Shown piece by piece: positions 37,030-49,987 of a DNA stretch of 64,000 nucleotides; position 1 is the stretch's first letter; each line of letters starts with the position of its first letter. Under the pieces are notes generated by a model that did no database searches, had not been told where the DNA came from, and saw only the letters and a list, made by a program, of their open reading frames with translations. Both the position numbers and the translations under genes were made by a program. Source of the DNA: Sorangium aterium (GTDB lineage Bacteria > Myxococcota_A > Polyangia > Polyangiales > Polyangiaceae); contig NZ_JAQNDK010000001.1 in the NCBI RefSeq assembly GCF_028368935.1, forward strand, positions 744,001 to 808,000, in the 5' to 3' direction.

Positions 37030-37097
37030 ACCGCCAAGACGCCAAAAGACGCCAAGATTTTTGTGGTTTTCTTGGCGTCTTTCGGCGTCTTGGCGGT
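37030..37097. repeat. Long intergenic palindrome built from CGCCAAGA units
   Basis: Arms at 37030-37057 and 37070-37097 are 28 bases with one mismatch, loop of 12 T/G-rich bases. Each arm holds three tandem variants of GACGCCAA. It resembles REP/REPIN-type intergenic hairpins and lies between the convergent membrane-protein gene and glgB; it could also serve as a bidirectional terminator. Confidence 0.85.
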
Positions 37098-39752: not shown

Positions 39753-41333
39753 ATGGGTCAGGTGGTGAGCGAGCGCCCGATCGGGGGCAACGGCAGCGGT
39801 CCTGGCATGAACGGGCACGGGGGCGGGGCGATCCGCAGCTACGCGCCCGCGACCGGGGAGCTCCTTGGAGAGGCCCCGAACACGAGCGCCGAGGAGGTGC
39901 GGGCCGCGGTCGCCCGGGCGCGGCGCGCGCAGGAGGCGTGGGGCGCGCTGCCCGTGGAGGAGCGCTGCCAGCGGGTCCTGCGCTTCCGCGACGCCATCGT
40001 CGATCGGACGGACGAGATCGTCGATCTGCTCTCGCGCGAGTGCGGCAAGCCGCGCCACGAGGCGCTCTTGCACGAGGTCCTTGTCGCGGCCGACATGGCG
40101 ACGTACTTCGCGCAGGTCGCCCCGAAGGCGCTCGAGCCGCACGAGATCAAGCTCCACCTCTTCAAGCACCGGCGCAGCTGGGTCCACTACGTCCCCCGCG
40201 GCGTGGTCGGCGTGATCTCGCCGTGGAACTTCCCGTTCCAGCTCGCGCTGCGCGACGTGCTCTCGGCGATCGTCGCCGGCAACGCCGCCGTGCTCAAGCC
40301 GAGCGAGGTGACGCCGCTCATCGCGCTCAAGCAGAAGGAGATCTGGGACGGCGCGGGCATGCCCGAGGATCTCTTCCAGGTCGTCACCGGCTACGGGCCG
40401 ACCGGCGCGGCGCTCATCGACAGCGGCATCCAGATGCTCCTGTTCACCGGCAGCGTCGGCACCGGCAGGAAGGTCGCCGCCGCCTGCGGCGAGCGCCTGA
40501 TCCCGTGCGTGATGGAGCTCGGCGGCAAGGCGCCGCTCATTGCCTGCGCGGACGCGGACATCGAGCGCACGGCGCAGGCGATCGTCTTCGGCGGCTTCGC
40601 GAACGCCGGGCAGGTGTGCGTCGCGGTGGAGCGGGTCTATGCGCACCGAGAGATCCACGACCGGCTGCTCGAGCGGACCGTCGAGATCACGAAGGGGCTG
40701 AACCAGGGCGATCCGGGCAAGGAGTTCGTCGACGTGGGGGCGATCATTTTCCCGCCGCAGATCGACGTCGCCGAGCGGCACATCAAGGACGCTGTCGACA
40801 AGGGGGCGACCGTGAAGGCCGGCGGCAAGCGCGCGCCGGGGCAGGGCCAGTTCTTCGAGCCGACGGTCCTCGCCGGCTGCGATCACGCGATGACGGTGAT
40901 GACCGAGGAGATCTTCGGGCCGGTCGTGCCCTTCATGCAGGTCGCGACCGAGGAGGAGGCGATCCGCCTCGCGAACGAGTCGCACCTCGGCCTCAACGCC
41001 TATGTCTTCTCGGAGGACACCGATCACGCCCGCCGGCTCGCCGAGCGCCTGCAGGCCGGCAGCGTGCTGGTGAACGACGTGCTCATGAACGGCGCCCTCC
41101 CCGACGCGCCGTTCGGCGGCGTCAAGCAGAGCGGCTTTGGCCGGGTGATGGGCGAGGACGGGCTCCGGCAGATGTGCGACGTCAAGCACATCAACGCGGA
41201 CCGCATCGCGCTGGGATCGAAGGACCCGACCTGGTTCCCCTACACCGCGTCGTCGTACAGCTGGTTCAAGCGGGGCATGCGCGCGCTCTTCTCGAGCGGC
41301 AGCTTCCTCCGGCGCATCGGGGAGCTCTTCTAG
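39753..41333 (+). CDS. NAD(P)-dependent aldehyde dehydrogenase
   Basis: The 526-residue product oxidises an aldehyde to the acid. ALDH landmarks: ISPWNFPFQLALRD (154-167), cofactor loop LKPSE and FTGSVGTGRK, general base Glu255 in MELGGKAP, nucleophile Cys289 in NAGQVCVAVERVY, and EEIFGPVVPF. The C-terminal PYTASSYSWFKRGMRAL tail resembles members acting on long-chain or succinate-type aldehydes, but substrate cannot be assigned. The start is chosen at the ATG preceding MGQVV; the Gly-rich first 25 residues are poorly conserved, and an internal start is possible. An 83% identical fragment of a relative lies at 45082-45171. Confidence 0.93.
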   Translation: MGQVVSERPIGGNGSGPGMNGHGGGAIRSYAPATGELLGEAPNTSAEEVRAAVARARRAQEAWGALPVEERCQRVLRFRDAIVDRTDEIVDLLSRECGKPRHEALLHEVLVAADMATYFAQVAPKALEPHEIKLHLFKHRRSWVHYVPRGVVGVISPWNFPFQLALRDVLSAIVAGNAAVLKPSEVTPLIALKQKEIWDGAGMPEDLFQVVTGYGPTGAALIDSGIQMLLFTGSVGTGRKVAAACGERLIPCVMELGGKAPLIACADADIERTAQAIVFGGFANAGQVCVAVERVYAHREIHDRLLERTVEITKGLNQGDPGKEFVDVGAIIFPPQIDVAERHIKDAVDKGATVKAGGKRAPGQGQFFEPTVLAGCDHAMTVMTEEIFGPVVPFMQVATEEEAIRLANESHLGLNAYVFSEDTDHARRLAERLQAGSVLVNDVLMNGALPDAPFGGVKQSGFGRVMGEDGLRQMCDVKHINADRIALGSKDPTWFPYTASSYSWFKRGMRALFSSGSFLRRIGELF

Positions 41334-41637
41334 AGCGACGGTCACCCGCTTCGGAGACGGGCCCACCTCGACGTTTTCGGTGCTCAGCGCACCGGAGTGC
41401 GCTTGCGCGCCGAAAACGTCGAGGTGGGCCCGTCTCCTGTGCGGGAGACCGCCGCTCGCAGAGGTGGGCGGAAACCGCGGTAGAGCGGCGCGCTGTCGGC
41501 GGCGTGGCGGGGAAACCTCGAGGCCGTCAGCTCGCCAGACGCCAGCTGGACGTCCACCAGGCGGGCACAGATCCTGCGCTTCGCGCCGGGCGCGCACGCC
41601 CTTGCGTCCCTGCCCGCTTGTGATCCAGGCTGAACCC
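41334..41637. other. Interval after aldehyde dehydrogenase, dominated by a large palindrome
   Basis: About 300 bases. The first third is the palindrome at 41353-41437. The remainder (to the antitoxin start) shows no gene I can support. Confidence 0.5.
41353..41437. repeat. Perfect 28-bp inverted repeat with nested hairpin
   Basis: Arms 41353-41380 and 41410-41437 are exact complements (28 of 28; begins GGAGACGGGCCCACC). The 29-base loop contains a second hairpin GCGCAC-CGGA-GTGCGC. It lies 20 bases after the aldehyde dehydrogenase stop. Possible roles: very strong terminator, mRNA 3' stabiliser, or palindromic mobile repeat. Confidence 0.9.
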
Positions 41638-42071: not shown

Positions 42072-42144
42072 GCGCCTCGGCGCCGCAGGGAGCGCCGCCC
42101 GATGGAGCGGGCCCCTCGATCACGACCGGCCCCGCGCTGCGGCG

Positions 42145-43458
42145 TCACAGCAGGCTCCCCTGGAGGATGACCTGCGCGACGTTGAAGTAGATGACGAGCC
42201 CGGAGACGTCGACGAGGGTCGCGACGAACGGCGCGGACGCGCTGGCCGGGTCGAATCCCAGCCGGCGGATCACGAAGGGCAGCATCGCGCCGGCGAGCGT
42301 CCCCCACGCGACGATGCCGACCAGGCTCGCGGCGACGGTGGCGGCCACCTGCAGGTAGTGCTCGCCGTACGTGTGGAAGATGGCCTGCCACACGAGGATG
42401 CGGACCAGGCCGATCGTGGCGAGGATGAGGCCGAGCGAGAGGCCGGCGGTGAGCTCGCGGCGGACGATGCTCCACCAGTCCTTGATGGTGACCTCGCCGA
42501 GCGCCATCGCGCGGATGATCAGCGTCGTCGCCTGGGATCCGGAGTTGCCGCCGCTCGAGATGATGAGCGGAACGAAGAGCGCGAGCACGACCGCCCTCGC
42601 GATCTCGTCCTCGTAATGCCCCATCGCGCTCGCGGTGAGCATCTCGCCGAGGAAGAGCGCCGAGAGCCAGCCGGCGCGCTTCTTCACCAGGGCGACCATG
42701 CCGGTCTTCATGTAGGGCGTGTCGAGCGCCTCCATGCCGCCGAGCTTCTGGATGTCCTCGGTCGCCGCGCTCTGGACGACGTCGACGATGTCGTCGACGG
42801 TGACGATGCCCTTGATCCGGCCCTCGGCGTCGACGACCGGAATCGCGTTGAGGTCATGCTGCGCGATGACGCGCGCGACCGCCTCCTGGTCCAGCGTATC
42901 GGGCACCGAGATGACGTCCCGCCGCATGACCTCGGACAGGGCCTTGTCGCTGCGCGCGGTGATGAGGTCCCGGAAGGACACCACGCCCAGGAGCCGCTGC
43001 TCCTGGTCGAGCACGTACGCGTAGTAGATGGTCTCGAGCTTCGCCTGGGCCTGCCGCTGGAGGTACCGGATCGCCTCTCCGACCCTCATGTCGGGCCGCA
43101 GCCGCGCGAACCGTGGGCTCATGAGCCCGCCGGCCTCATCCTCGGCGTACGCCATGAGCGCCGCGACCTCGCGCCGCGTCGGCTCGTCCAGCATCTCCAG
43201 GAGCGAGGCGCGGAGCTCCTGGGGAACGAGCTGGATCACGTCCGCGGCGTCGTCGGGCGCGAGGAGCCGCATCCAGAGCCTGCGCTCGCCGGCCTTCATC
43301 GCGAGGAGGACGGCGGCCTGCTCCTGCTCGGCGAGGCCGAGGAAGAAGCTGTGCGCCTCGCCCCGCTCGAGGTGCTCGACGCCGTCGGCGCGCTCTTCGG
43401 GGGACAGCACCGCCCAGATCTCGCCGAGCTCTGCGGCGGTAAGACGGTCGTCGGACAT
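42145..43458 (-). CDS. mgtE: Magnesium transporter MgtE
   Basis: The 437-residue homodimeric Mg2+ channel has an N domain (about 1-125, with LLAPDDAADVIQLVP), two CBS domains (about 128-255, e.g. AIPVVDAEGRIKGIVTVDDI) that gate by Mg2+ binding, then five membrane helices (about 280-437) with PLIISSGGNSGSQATTLIIR, the pore signature. ATG at 43456-43458 follows a near-perfect Shine-Dalgarno GGAGGTGA five bases upstream. No riboswitch-like leader is evident. Confidence 0.96.
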   Translation of the reverse strand: MSDDRLTAAELGEIWAVLSPEERADGVEHLERGEAHSFFLGLAEQEQAAVLLAMKAGERRLWMRLLAPDDAADVIQLVPQELRASLLEMLDEPTRREVAALMAYAEDEAGGLMSPRFARLRPDMRVGEAIRYLQRQAQAKLETIYYAYVLDQEQRLLGVVSFRDLITARSDKALSEVMRRDVISVPDTLDQEAVARVIAQHDLNAIPVVDAEGRIKGIVTVDDIVDVVQSAATEDIQKLGGMEALDTPYMKTGMVALVKKRAGWLSALFLGEMLTASAMGHYEDEIARAVVLALFVPLIISSGGNSGSQATTLIIRAMALGEVTIKDWWSIVRRELTAGLSLGLILATIGLVRILVWQAIFHTYGEHYLQVAATVAASLVGIVAWGTLAGAMLPFVIRRLGFDPASASAPFVATLVDVSGLVIYFNVAQVILQGSLL

Positions 43459-43609: not shown

Positions 43610-44132
43610 TCAGACCGGCACGGGCTCGGCGGGCTTGACCTGGACGGGCGCGGGCTCAGGCAGCGCAGGCTCGTCCGGTGTGGCGGCGCTCCCCCGGCGC
43701 TTCGGACGGAGCCTTCGCAGCGCGTTGCGGAACGAGGCGGGGCTGAACGAACGCCTTGAGCCGCGCGCCAGGGCCGGCTCGCCTTGATCAGCTGGTCGAC
43801 CGATCGCACCTGATACGCCCGGTGCGCCTGCCCTCGCCGAACCAGAGGTTCGCGGTGTCGAGGAGCTGGATGGCGCCGCGGAGCAGCGCGCGCCGCTCGG
43901 GGCCGTACGCCTTGCTCGCGAGCGGCGCCTCGTACTGGACGACCGCCAGGTAGAGGTCCCGGAGCTCCGTGAGGGTGGTCGAGATGGGCTGACTCGGCTC
44001 CATGACCTCGCGGACGATGCGGTCGAGCTCTGGACGCGCTTGTTCGAGGAGGGTCTGAAACTCCGCGGGGGTGCCCACCGCGCGGGTCTCCTTCCGGACC
44101 ACGAGTCGCTCTTGTGACAGCTCGATTCCCAT
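43610..44132 (-). pseudogene. Degraded hypothetical gene with several frameshifts
   Basis: The ATG at 44130-44132 has a good GGAGG upstream. The first ~100 codons read cleanly (RLVVRKETRAVGTPAEFQTL, LRDLYLAVVQYEAPLASKAY, LLDTANLWFGEG) and then the frame fails at about 43815. A second frame continues QAHRAYQVRSVDQLIKASRP, and a third frame from about 43750 gives FSPASFRNALRRLRPKRRG with a Pro/Val-rich end stopping at 43610-43612. At least two frame changes are needed, so this is decay rather than one error. Unknown family. Confidence 0.6.
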
Positions 44133-44172
44133 AACCTACCTCCAGGTGGGGTGGTGGCCAGTGTGGACATCG

Positions 44173-44771
44173 TGGCCAAAGGGCGGTCGTAGCACGACAG
44201 CAAAGCTCGGTGCGGCCCAGCGTCTCCTGGCACACCAGAAAGCAGGGGTGCGCCGCCGGGGAGTTGCACCGGCGCTTCTGGGATGCGGCCCGGCGGAGGT
44301 GGGGAATGGGATCAGCGGGTCGGGAGCGCGGCCAGCAGCGCGGAGGAGCTACAGCAGCAGATCGGAGGGCGAAGAAGCGCGAGCCAGGCCTATACCGCTG
44401 TCCCGCTACCTTCGCTGGGGTCGGCAGCTTTGCCTCTCAGCGCCGATTTCACGTGGTCGTGAGAGGTGCGCAGCAAATCGCCCAGCTTGTCGAGATCATC
44501 GATCGACTCCATCGTTACGCACGACCAGCCGAGCTGGGGGATGGTGACCGGAAGCGAGGCAGCGAGGGGGCCCCCCCTGTCGAGCGGCGGAGGCACCCAG
44601 ATGCACGGCTTCTTACGGCCGGCCAGCAGTCTGCAGAACACCGCCGTCCGCTTCTCCTGAAGGTGCATCTTGAAATAGGACACGGTGTCCTCGTAGGCGA
44701 TCGACCGTTCGGGCCCAAGCAGGCGCTGAGCCGCTGCAAAGGCACTGAGCTCTTTCAACGCCCTTTGGCCA
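44173..44771. repeat. ~0.6-kb segment bounded by ~13-21-bp inverted repeats
   Basis: TGGCCAAAGGGCG at 44173-44185 recurs inverted at 44759-44771; with one gap the similarity extends about eight bases outward (GGACATCG versus GGCACCGT). The right copy coincides with the left edge of repeat R1. Inside lies the orphan gene fragment 44390-44790. It could be the ends of a decayed small element. Confidence 0.45.
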
Positions 44772-44790
44772 ACGGTGCCCACAAGACAAC
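44390..44790 (-). pseudogene. 3' fragment of a gene truncated at repeat R1
   Basis: The open frame has protein-like composition: ALKELSAFAAAQRLLGPERS, SYFKMHLQEKRTAVFCRLLA, LGWSCVTMESIDDLDKLGDL, LLRTSHDHVKSALRG. It loses this character exactly at the R1 border, where it continues into repeat sequence with no plausible start. The layout (short helix, beta strands, then a helix after SIDDLDKLGDLL) is reminiscent of DUF5655-like domains, but I cannot confirm it. Probably the C-terminal part of a gene cut by R1. Confidence 0.5.
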
Positions 44791-45061
44791 GTGAGCGCCG
44801 GCGGGGGGCTGTGCGCGGCGGCGCGCGGGTGGGCGCGGCGAGCACCGAAACGAGGTGCCATAAGGTCTCAGAAGGCTCTACGTCCCAGGCGCGCCTTGTG
44901 TGGCGCGCGACGAGGCGTCTCAGGGGGCATGGCCCGAAGTGAGACATGCCGGGCGGTGTTCTCAGCGCAAGCTCTCCCGTCCCCGTCTTGGCGGATGGCC
45001 GAGCGCTCACCCGCGCGCCGCCGCGCACAGCCCCCCGCCGGCGCGTGCGGCTCGGCTCAGC
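44759..45061. mobile_element. Repeat R1: MITE-like element with 42-bp terminal inverted repeats
   Basis: The core 44795-45044 (250 bases) is bounded by inverted repeats 44795-44836 and 45003-45044 that match at 41 of 42 positions (start GCGCCGGCGGGGGGCTGTGC). Inside is another hairpin, GCGCGCC-TTGTGT-GGCGCGC. Homology to R2 extends beyond the core to about 44759 and 45061. There is no coding capacity for a transposase, so it would be non-autonomous. Same orientation as R2. Confidence 0.8.
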
Positions 45062-45081
45062 GATCCACGATCGCGGCGCGC

Positions 45082-45171
45082 CAACAGGACGATCCAGGCA
45101 AGGAGTTCGTCGACATAGGCGCGATCATCTCCCCGCCGCAGATCGACGCCGCGGAGCGGCACACGAAAGAT
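45082..45171 (+). pseudogene. Aldehyde dehydrogenase remnant (~30 codons)
   Basis: These 90 bases align without gaps to 40701-40790 in the intact aldehyde dehydrogenase with 15 mismatches (83%). The frame reads PGKEFVDIGAIISPPQIDAA, matching residues about 321-340 there. Flanks show no further similarity. It begins about 20 bases from the right edge of R1 and ends about nine bases before the monooxygenase stop. Confidence 0.8.
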
Positions 45172-45180
45172 CCCCCCGCA

Positions 45181-46434
45181 TCACGGCCCGCCCGCGAGGA
45201 CAGCAGGCTGGCGGACCGCCGTCGGCGCGCGCGCGTACTCGTTGAGCGCGATCGAGTCGTGCAGCCGGACCCCATGGCTGCTCAGCTTGGCCAGCGCGCG
45301 CGACACCCCGCGCGGCGCCACGCTGACCAGGCGGCCGATCTGCGCCAGCGCCCACAGCTCGAACTGGCTACCCGGGACCAGGCGCCTGGCGGCGTTCAGC
45401 GCGAACACCCGGCTGCGGCGCACGTAGTCGGCCAGCTTGCGCTCGCAGGCCTGGAACGCGCGCGCGTGGTCGCCGCCGGCCGCGGCCAGCTCACCGGCGA
45501 GGACATAGGCGCCCACCACCGCGAGGCTGGTGCTGCCGCCGACCGCCGGCCCCGGCGAATAGCCGGCGTCGCCGGTCAGGGTGACGCGCCCGCGTGACCA
45601 CGAGTCCATGCGCAGCTGCGTGATCGAGTCGAAGTAGAACGCCGGGGTCCGATCGAGCTCGGCCATCAGCCGCGGCACCTCCCAGCCGGCCCCGGCAAAC
45701 GCCTCGCGCAGCAATTGCTTCTGCCGCGCGACGTCTCGGTGGTGGACGTCGAGCTCGCGCGGGCTGCGGAACAGGAACACCGCGCGCGCGTCGTCGATCG
45801 TGTGCGAGCCATAGATCGCCGCCATCCGCCCGACCCCGCCGAGCACGACCGCGTGGTCGTGCAGCTGCAAGTAGTTGGGGATCGAGATCACCGCGAGGTA
45901 GGCGCCGATGAAACGCGCGAACTGCCGCTCCTCGCCGAACACCAGCCGCCGCACGTTCGAGTGCAGCCCGTCGGCGCCGATCACCAGATCGAAGCGCCGC
46001 GGCGCGCCGCGCTCGAACGTCACGTCGACACCGGCCTCGTCCTCGGCGAGCGAGGCGATCGAGTCGCCGAACACGTACTCGACATCGTCCCGGGTCGCGT
46101 CGTGGAAGATCTCGCTGAGATCGTCGCGCATGATCTCGACGTGGCGGTCGGACACCGCGTGCATCAGCCGGCCGACGTCGACGTCGACCTGCCTTTGCAC
46201 CCCCTCGCGCAGCAGCGTCATGCGCTCGGTGCCCGTCTTCTTGGCCTCGACCCGCGCCAGCACGCCCATCCGCTCGACGATGTCCATCGCCGGCCGAAAC
46301 AGATCCACCGCGTGGCCGCCCGTCTTGCGCAGCGTCGGCGCGCGCTCCACCACCGTCGGCCGAAACCCGTGCCGCTTGAGCCAGTAGGCCAGCACCGGAC
46401 CGGCGATGCTGGCCCCCGAAATGAGGATCTCCAT
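45181..46434 (-). CDS. FAD-dependent monooxygenase (PHBH/TetX-like)
   Basis: ATG 46432-46434 with AAGGAGG nine bases upstream gives 417 residues. Group A flavoprotein hydroxylase motifs: N-terminal ILISGASIAGPVLAYWLKR (GxGxxG relaxed to G-A-S-I-A-G), DG motif FDLVIGADGLHSNVRR, and GD motif RVTLTGDAGYSPGPAVGGS. Such enzymes hydroxylate aromatics, antibiotics (tetracyclines, rifamycins) or polyketides with NAD(P)H and O2. Divergent from a TetR gene sharing two operators, so expression is probably induced by a ligand. The whole pair lies between repeats R1 and R2, suggesting acquisition. Confidence 0.9.
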   Translation of the reverse strand: MEILISGASIAGPVLAYWLKRHGFRPTVVERAPTLRKTGGHAVDLFRPAMDIVERMGVLARVEAKKTGTERMTLLREGVQRQVDVDVGRLMHAVSDRHVEIMRDDLSEIFHDATRDDVEYVFGDSIASLAEDEAGVDVTFERGAPRRFDLVIGADGLHSNVRRLVFGEERQFARFIGAYLAVISIPNYLQLHDHAVVLGGVGRMAAIYGSHTIDDARAVFLFRSPRELDVHHRDVARQKQLLREAFAGAGWEVPRLMAELDRTPAFYFDSITQLRMDSWSRGRVTLTGDAGYSPGPAVGGSTSLAVVGAYVLAGELAAAGGDHARAFQACERKLADYVRRSRVFALNAARRLVPGSQFELWALAQIGRLVSVAPRGVSRALAKLSSHGVRLHDSIALNEYARAPTAVRQPAVLAGGP

Positions 46435-46447
46435 GGGCCCCTCCTTA

Positions 46448-46463
46448 CTTACCGATAGGTAAG
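46448..46463. promoter_or_regulatory. TetR-type operator 1
   Basis: CTTACCGATAGGTAAG is a near-perfect 16-base palindrome 14 bases before the monooxygenase ATG, overlapping its likely promoter or leader. Confidence 0.8.
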
Positions 46464-46487
46464 CACGCGACCCCACCTCGCACAAGG

Positions 46488-46503
46488 CTTACCGATCGGT
46501 AAG
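46488..46503. promoter_or_regulatory. TetR-type operator 2
   Basis: CTTACCGATCGGTAAG is a perfect 16-base palindrome, 40 bases centre-to-centre from operator 1 and 20 bases before the tetR GTG, so one dimer pair could control both divergent genes. Confidence 0.85.
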
Positions 46504-46522
46504 TAACCGCTACACTGCGCGG

Positions 46523-47068
46523 GTGACCCGAGCCCGGCCCTCCGACACCAAGGCGCGAATCCAGGCGGTGGCGCGCGAGCTGTTCGCGCGCCAGGGAGTC
46601 CAGCGGACCAGCCTGCGCGAGATCGCCGATCACCTCGGCATCACCAAGCCTGCGCTCTACTACCACTTCGACTCGCGCGAATCGCTGGTCGCCAGCATCG
46701 TCGAGCCGCTGCTCGCGGACGTGGACGCGTTCATCGCCGAGCGCGAGGGCGGCCCGCAGCCTGACCCCCGCGTCCTGCTCGCCGACTACTTCGATCTCCT
46801 GCACCGCCACCGCGACACCCTCACGATGGTGGTCCGCGACCTCGCAACGCTCGCCTACCTCGACCTCGGCATGCGCATGATCGAGTGGCGCCGCCGCCTG
46901 ATGCGCCTTCTCATCGGCCCCCGCCCCTCGCTCGCCGCCCGCGCCCGCGCCGTCGTCGCCATCGGCGGCCTCTCCGACTGCGTCATCGAGTTCACCGACG
47001 TACCGATGGAGAAGGTCAAGTCGCTCGCCGTCGAGGCCGCCTTGGCCGCCCTCGGACCAACGTCATGA
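46523..47068 (+). CDS. TetR-family repressor of the monooxygenase
   Basis: GTG 46523 gives 181 residues. The HTH (about 10-55) reads IQAVARELFARQGVQRTSLR followed by EIADHLGITKPALYYHFDSR, a textbook TetR recognition region. The C-terminal ligand domain is short. It is divergent from the monooxygenase, with twin palindromic operators between. Likely autoregulated and released by the substrate of the monooxygenase or a related compound. Confidence 0.93.
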   Translation: MTRARPSDTKARIQAVARELFARQGVQRTSLREIADHLGITKPALYYHFDSRESLVASIVEPLLADVDAFIAEREGGPQPDPRVLLADYFDLLHRHRDTLTMVVRDLATLAYLDLGMRMIEWRRRLMRLLIGPRPSLAARARAVVAIGGLSDCVIEFTDVPMEKVKSLAVEAALAALGPTS

Positions 47069-47104
47069 ATCGCGTACCCACGCATTACTGCCGTGCAGCT
47101 CGGC

Positions 47105-47400
47105 GCCCTTTGACTGGCGCTCACAAGACAACGTGAGCGCCGGCGGGGGGCTGTGCGCGGCGGCGCGCGGGTGGGCGCGGCGAGCACCGAACGAGGCGCC
47201 ATAAGCTCCCAGGAGGCTCCACGTCCCAGGCGCGCCTTGTGTGGCGCGCAACGAGACGTCTCAGAAGGCATGGCCCGAAGTGAGACATGCCGGGCGGTGT
47301 TCTCAGCGCAAGCTCCCCGGCCCAGTCTTGGCGGATGGCCGAGCGCCCACCCGCGCGCCGCCGCGCACAGCCCCCCGCCGGCGCGGCGGCTCGGCTCAGC
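47105..47400. mobile_element. Repeat R2: MITE-like element with perfect 42-bp inverted repeats
   Basis: Core 47137-47384 (248 bases). Inverted repeats 47137-47178 and 47343-47384 are identical complements. The interior matches R1 closely with scattered substitutions and short indels. The left edge lies about 36 bases after the tetR stop and the right edge 17 bases before the lon stop codon. Confidence 0.8.
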
Positions 47401-47417
47401 CCCTCTCTCCCTGTCCG

Positions 47418-49817
<2,400 letters not shown>

Positions 49818-49987
49818 GCGAACTCCTGTGGCAGCGGTCGGCTCGCGCCATCCGTGCCGGATCGGTGGAAGGTTCGGTTGACTGCGTGGACAGCGCGCCG
49901 CACCTCCGCCCGTGAGGGCGGCGCGGCGCGCGGATGGGCTCACGTAGACCGCCGCGAGCAACCGCTCGGGCGAGCTCCATGAATCGA

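Follow-up and report, generated by a model that had tools for sequence, protein, structure and literature searches.

A Sorangium-specific palindromic repeat that follows genes in fixed orientation and conserves its core and the pairing of its arms

A 64,000-nucleotide stretch of the Sorangium aterium genome (contig NZ_JAQNDK010000001.1, positions 744,001 to 808,000; called the window, and numbered from its first base) contains two similar repeats, R1 and R2, the second of them behind the lon protease gene. Both are copies of a dispersed, Sorangium-specific interspersed repeat of ~280 bp, whose family and distribution are described here, and the orientation of the repeat is fixed relative to the gene upstream of it. 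The overall explanation that we favor, and hold to be rather probable, is of a genus-specific repeat lying behind stop codons in fixed orientation, able to form a hairpin, with arms re-matched in place and a probable role at gene ends. It is best read as a palindromic repeat of gene 3′ ends that varies on the REP/REPIN/YPAL theme.

R1 (44759-45061) and R2 (47105-47400) are direct copies in the same orientation and are 93% identical. An earlier note, made from the window's sequence alone, had described them as same-orientation repeats with 42-base inverted arms and no transposase, and this is borne out: the arms are complementary at 41 of 42 positions in R1 (44795-44836 and 45003-45044) and at 42 of 42 in R2 (47137-47178 and 47343-47384), and the element is smaller than 500 bp, with inverted ends and no transposase inside. 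The arms stood as drawn in that note, but not the limits of the unit: in the flank profile of 83 copies, the conserved sequence reaches ~20 nt beyond the 5′ arm and 5-9 nt beyond the 3′ arm, and, relative to the genes, it reads best along the minus strand. By "sense" we mean the direction in which the usual preceding gene is read, which for both R1 and R2 is the minus strand of the window. The full R2 element, reading in the direction of lon, spans 47129-47404 by its arms and the flank profile, with its 5′ arm at 47343-47384, its conserved core of ~165 nt at 47179-47342 and its 3′ arm at 47137-47178. R1, oriented as R2, spans 44787-45064 (from its arms, the copy search and the flank profile), with the 5′ arm at 45003-45044, the core, placed by copy alignment, at 44837-45002, and the 3′ arm at 44795-44836. 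The alignment comprised 44 copies, to which 42 more from So ce26 were added (86 in total); over 82 copies, 108 of 165 core columns are at least 90% conserved. The element region folds much more stably than its dinucleotide shuffles (z −9.8), and each copy is predicted to be able to form a hairpin, with a near-perfect stem of ~42 bp around the conserved core. In most truncated copies it is the 5′ sense part that remains and the 3′ part that is lost, a bias that may reflect no more than deletions entering from the side away from the gene.

Sequence searches and retrieved stretches gave nine full copies in the S. aterium genome, and a covariance model of the core also gave nine. The same model found 8 copies in So0157-2, 13 in So ceGT47 (one weak) and 59 in So ce26 (a few partial), as well as 3 in So0008-312 and 1 in a Sorangium metagenome-assembled genome (MAG), the last two counts being lower bounds from fragmented assemblies. 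Matches to the element were confined to these 6 Sorangium genomes among 98 genomes of the Polyangiaceae, and none was found in the 92 others. Across 84,980 species genomes the exact core motif occurred in Sorangium records only; it was absent from the viral contigs searched, and a viral origin was rejected on that ground. The copy count proposed in the earlier note has thus returned a dispersed family, variable in copy number and limited to Sorangium. Dispersal, presence or absence between species, expansion in So ce26 and restriction to the genus are all observed for it. The statement that no such myxobacterial family had been described also stands within what was searched: Rfam gave no credible covariance-model match to the element at E values up to 1, and no description of the repeat from Sorangium or other myxobacteria was found in the openly accessible literature searched. 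On the So ce26 chromosome, copies between ~2.9 and 7.7 Mb lie mostly on one strand and those between 7.7 and 13 Mb mostly on the other, a weak trend judged by eye when a replichore bias was considered.

The element is dispersed, intergenic, palindromic and close downstream of genes. A co-directional upstream gene was found for 66 of the 86 copies, and in 62 of these its stop codon lies 5-79 nt ahead of the arm (median ~28 nt). Many of the 86 copies are orthologues, and the cleanest figure comes from the 42 further So ce26 copies: a gene end lay within 50 nt on the 5′ side only in 24 of them, on both sides in 7, and on the 3′ side only in none (sign test, p = 1e-7). The upstream genes, 20 sampled ones and lon, share no common theme; among them are the genes for EF-G, malate dehydrogenase (mdh) and ATP synthase gamma, pheT, gcvP, and regulators. 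At R2, the gene is lon (47418-49961, minus strand; Pfam Lon_C and others), which stops 33 nt before the arm.

R2 has orthologues behind lon in So0157-2 and So ce26, and lon of So ceGT47 has no element. Six So ce26 sites were joined across their flanks and searched against the other Sorangium genomes; the EF-G site is uninterrupted, as one continuous match, in the MAG, So ceGT47, So0157-2 and So0008-312. At empty sites, coding similarity stops at the stop codon. Because the intergenic tails behind it are unrelated between species, they are too diverged for a target duplication to be read there, and none is visible in the flank profile of 83 copies.

The arms and the core behave differently. Over 84 copies, 3,584 of 3,599 arm pairs (99.6%) are Watson-Crick and only 2 are G-U, yet arms at different loci are 83% identical, versus 92-100% within a locus, so that only the pairing is kept. 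Mean arm distance is 0.04 among orthologous loci of different genomes and 0.175 between loci; for the core the values are 0.127 and about 0.15, and the core is thus not locus-specific. The outer stem is strongly compensated, with two-sided changes dominating between orthologues: 55 pair differences had changed on both arms versus 6 on one arm, counted over copy pairs and hence not all independent events. Within a genome, cores are slightly more alike than chance (permutation p 0.02) and arms are not (p 0.66). One core site is G in 12 of 12 So ceGT47 copies, A in every copy from S. aterium, So0157-2 and So0008-312, and mixed in So ce26. This same-genome likeness and the genome-specific site suggest exchange of cores, but not of arms, among the loci of a genome.

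Were selection at the RNA level the only force, G-U intermediates should be common; given their near-absence, we prefer copying at the DNA level: the arms are most likely re-matched in place by template switching within the inverted repeat. Template switching between inverted-repeat arms homogenizes the arms (PMC8604942), and template-switch mutations have been observed in Escherichia coli (PMC7202029). Such switching could also invert the spacer; frequent inversion is not evident, the end motifs of the flanks and the orientation of the core agreeing in the copies seen. In the mechanism we propose, transcripts of the upstream gene (lon in the case of R2) would carry the element as their 3′ untranslated end, copies would spread by a route that is possibly trans-acting or recombinational, and the two arms would be re-matched repeatedly, most likely as just described. 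Copies might then be kept either because a very stable stem is tolerated at a gene end or because it helps to end or protect transcripts. We infer a probable role as a transcript-end hairpin.

The R1/R2 pair calls for a separate account. The segment between the repeats holds, as first noted from the sequence, a relic of an aldehyde dehydrogenase (ALDH) gene, a flavin adenine dinucleotide (FAD)-dependent monooxygenase gene and a TetR regulator gene. The relic (45085-45163, plus strand; 79 bp) is 88.6% identical to the ALDH gene at 40704-40782, 4.4 kb to the left, and begins 23 bp past the R1/R2 homology; we take it to be a duplication scar. The monooxygenase (FAD_binding_3, PF01494, E 1.2e-17) is encoded at 45181-46434 on the minus strand and the regulator (TetR_N, PF00440, E 3.7e-16) at 46523-47068 on the plus strand. 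Between these divergent genes lie two 16-bp operator-like palindromes, CTTACCGATNGGTAAG (46448-46463 and 46488-46503, spanning 46448-46503; 0.05 matches expected by chance), which would fit a self-regulated TetR pair, as expected.

The earlier note had read this arrangement as a composite of two miniature inverted-repeat transposable elements (MITEs) around a cassette, and for R1/R2 we reject that reading. The homology continues beyond the arms in both directions (44759-45061 versus 47105-47400), so that on the R1 side the homologous stretch, 44759-45061, extends past the element's arms; an ALDH fragment stands next to R1; and elsewhere in the genus the monooxygenase has no close homologue, its best match being 50% identical. 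The pair has the look of an old local tandem duplication of which only remnants are left, a reading that has three agreeing sequence facts behind it but short shared flanks. A duplication running from within the ALDH gene to the element would explain both the homology past the arms and the ALDH relic beside R1. The strain comparison proposed in that note bears on the point in part, since So ce26 has ALDH region, element and lon with neither R1 nor the cassette, which also supports a duplication: there, the region up to window position 42086 runs straight into the element and lon, and an MgtE gene is missing as well. In So0157-2, parts of 43622-44692 (the B region) lie between the ALDH-side region and the lon element. 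From these two arrangements, the ancestral order was likely ALDH region, B region, element, lon. R1 follows the monooxygenase stop at 136 nt, farther than copies usually lie, which also argues against a fresh insertion there. We infer that R1 arose from an ancestor of R2 when a tandem duplication copied the stretch from within the ALDH gene as far as the element; the interior of the second copy would then have been lost, and the monooxygenase-tetR pair would have come in between R1 and R2. Local duplication had also been named as the alternative if the repeats occurred only here. They do not, and duplication alone was rejected for the family since its copies are dispersed, yet it is what the R1/R2 pair itself resembles.

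Several points weigh against our explanation. The gene calls behind the positional result came from a simple in-house codon-usage script, not from curated annotation. No T-run of the kind needed by an intrinsic terminator stands at the element, and a reading as such a terminator was rejected for this reason. Within the core, none of the 50 pairs predicted for the sense strand covaried, and of the 39 for the antisense strand one did (a single cell); together with the lack of an Rfam match, this leaves a conserved RNA fold of the core unsupported, while the stem itself is supported. As for the pair in the window, the flanks shared by R1 and R2 are only about 36 and 17 bp, and the duplication model does not account for the entry of the monooxygenase-tetR cassette.

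The alternatives fare less well. The element could act in cis as a structured RNA of the 3′ untranslated region, serving a specific regulatory function and kept by selection at chosen genes; its strictly sense placement 3′ of genes, its conserved core and perfect stem, and the persistence of orthologous copies across species would allow this. We consider this unlikely: the upstream genes have no shared theme, orthologous genes in other species do without the element, the core covariation is as given above, and the scarcity of G-U pairs in the arms argues for DNA-level copying. It would also surprise us, though the idea deserves mention, if the family represented a new kind of short mobile element, inserting directionally just behind stop codons, perhaps at exposed single-stranded DNA or transcription ends. 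In such an element, the second arm would be recopied from the first during spread, so that the ends vary freely and the ~165-nt core carries the information for movement.

We hold it quite improbable that a transposase acting in trans moves the repeats as MITEs, with R1-cassette-R2 as a composite non-autonomous element, even though small size, inverted ends, lack of a transposase, dispersed copies, expansion in one strain and presence or absence between species all suit it. Variable arms around a conserved core are the reverse of what recognition ends should show, orientation is locked to the upstream gene, and no target duplication is readable. Nor was a parent element found among the copies recovered: none had a coding insert, and the partial copies examined were truncations. 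The MITE identity given in the earlier note is not upheld on these grounds, and for the composite in particular the homology beyond the element ends and a cassette found nowhere else in the genus are further objections. A REPIN-like or single-strand (IS200/IS605-like) element with the hairpin as transposition intermediate is very unlikely. Hairpins, compensatory arm changes and sites after gene ends are all known for REP/REPIN sequences (PMC3116915, PMC3733652), but REPIN ends are the conserved part, those of the Sorangium element vary, and Y1_Tnp (PF01797), and hence RAYT, was matched in 0 of 6 Sorangium genomes with positive controls; a RAYT/IS200 route was rejected accordingly. A reverse-transcriptase link was likewise rejected, as none of 30 RVT_1 loci had a copy within about 1.5 kb.

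Under the reading as a gene-3′-end palindromic repeat, the nearest known systems each match in part. REP sequences occur mainly on the downstream side of coding regions (PMC3733652) and compensatory changes are seen in the hairpins of REPINs (PMC3116915); the REP/REPIN (BIME) group shares with the Sorangium element its palindromic structure and intergenic location. In contrast to REPs of 20-40 bp, the Sorangium element is much longer, has few copies, varies in the arms and conserves the core, and has no RAYT/Y1 transposase. Among the stem-loop families catalogued in bacterial genomes is YPAL of Yersinia, 130-170 bp, interspersed and palindromic (PMC2267715). The Sorangium element resembles it in being an interspersed palindromic family but is longer and in an unrelated host; orientation relative to the upstream gene, locked in the Sorangium element, was examined for that element alone. 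Prokaryotic MITEs (Correia, QMITE2, Chunjie) are <500 bp, with terminal inverted repeats of ~4-30 bp and direct repeats, and are usually AT-rich and intergenic (PMC10969869); size, inverted ends, intergenic location and lack of a transposase are shared, but the Sorangium arms are 42 bp, GC-rich and variable by locus, with no readable direct repeats.

Group IIC introns, which insert after terminators, have a similar directional location just after genes, but the Sorangium element is far too short, matches no intron domains in Rfam and has no copy near any of the 30 RVT_1 loci. It stands apart from known gene-end palindromes in that the pattern of conservation is inverted, the orientation locked and RAYT lacking. 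Most small palindromic repeats are recognized by conserved ends; in this one, conservation lies in the core and, at the ends, in their pairing only, and its direction behind genes is fixed. Should some defined machinery spread its copies, the family would reveal a new mobility route; otherwise it would be a natural record of inverted-repeat arms kept matched in place. The annotation of the very large Sorangium genomes is affected too, with at least one further gene-end palindrome family abundant there.

That further family is represented in the window by a palindromic repeat at 41333-41457, which starts at the ALDH stop codon and has 54-nt arms (87%) and a 17-nt spacer. Its relatives are abundant in all six Sorangium genomes, with at least 16-80 matches listed per genome, both strands counted. 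Weaker relatives of a further inverted repeat, at 37030-37097, occur in two other loci; its 28-nt arms (CCAAGACGCC...) are 96% complementary. At one S. aterium and one So ce26 locus, two conserved genes, shared by both loci, point toward each other and each ends in an element copy; the DNA between the copies differs between the two genomes, and each cargo is similar to sequence beside single copies in other species. Gene ends that carry the element in one species bear, in others, unrelated long inverted repeats in the tails behind their stops (e.g., CGTGGTCGTGG..., CACAGAGGGCACAGAGG...), and gene-end palindromes may be general in Sorangium. Finally, an MgtE-type transporter gene (42145-43458) is present in the window and absent at the corresponding place in So ce26 and So0157-2.

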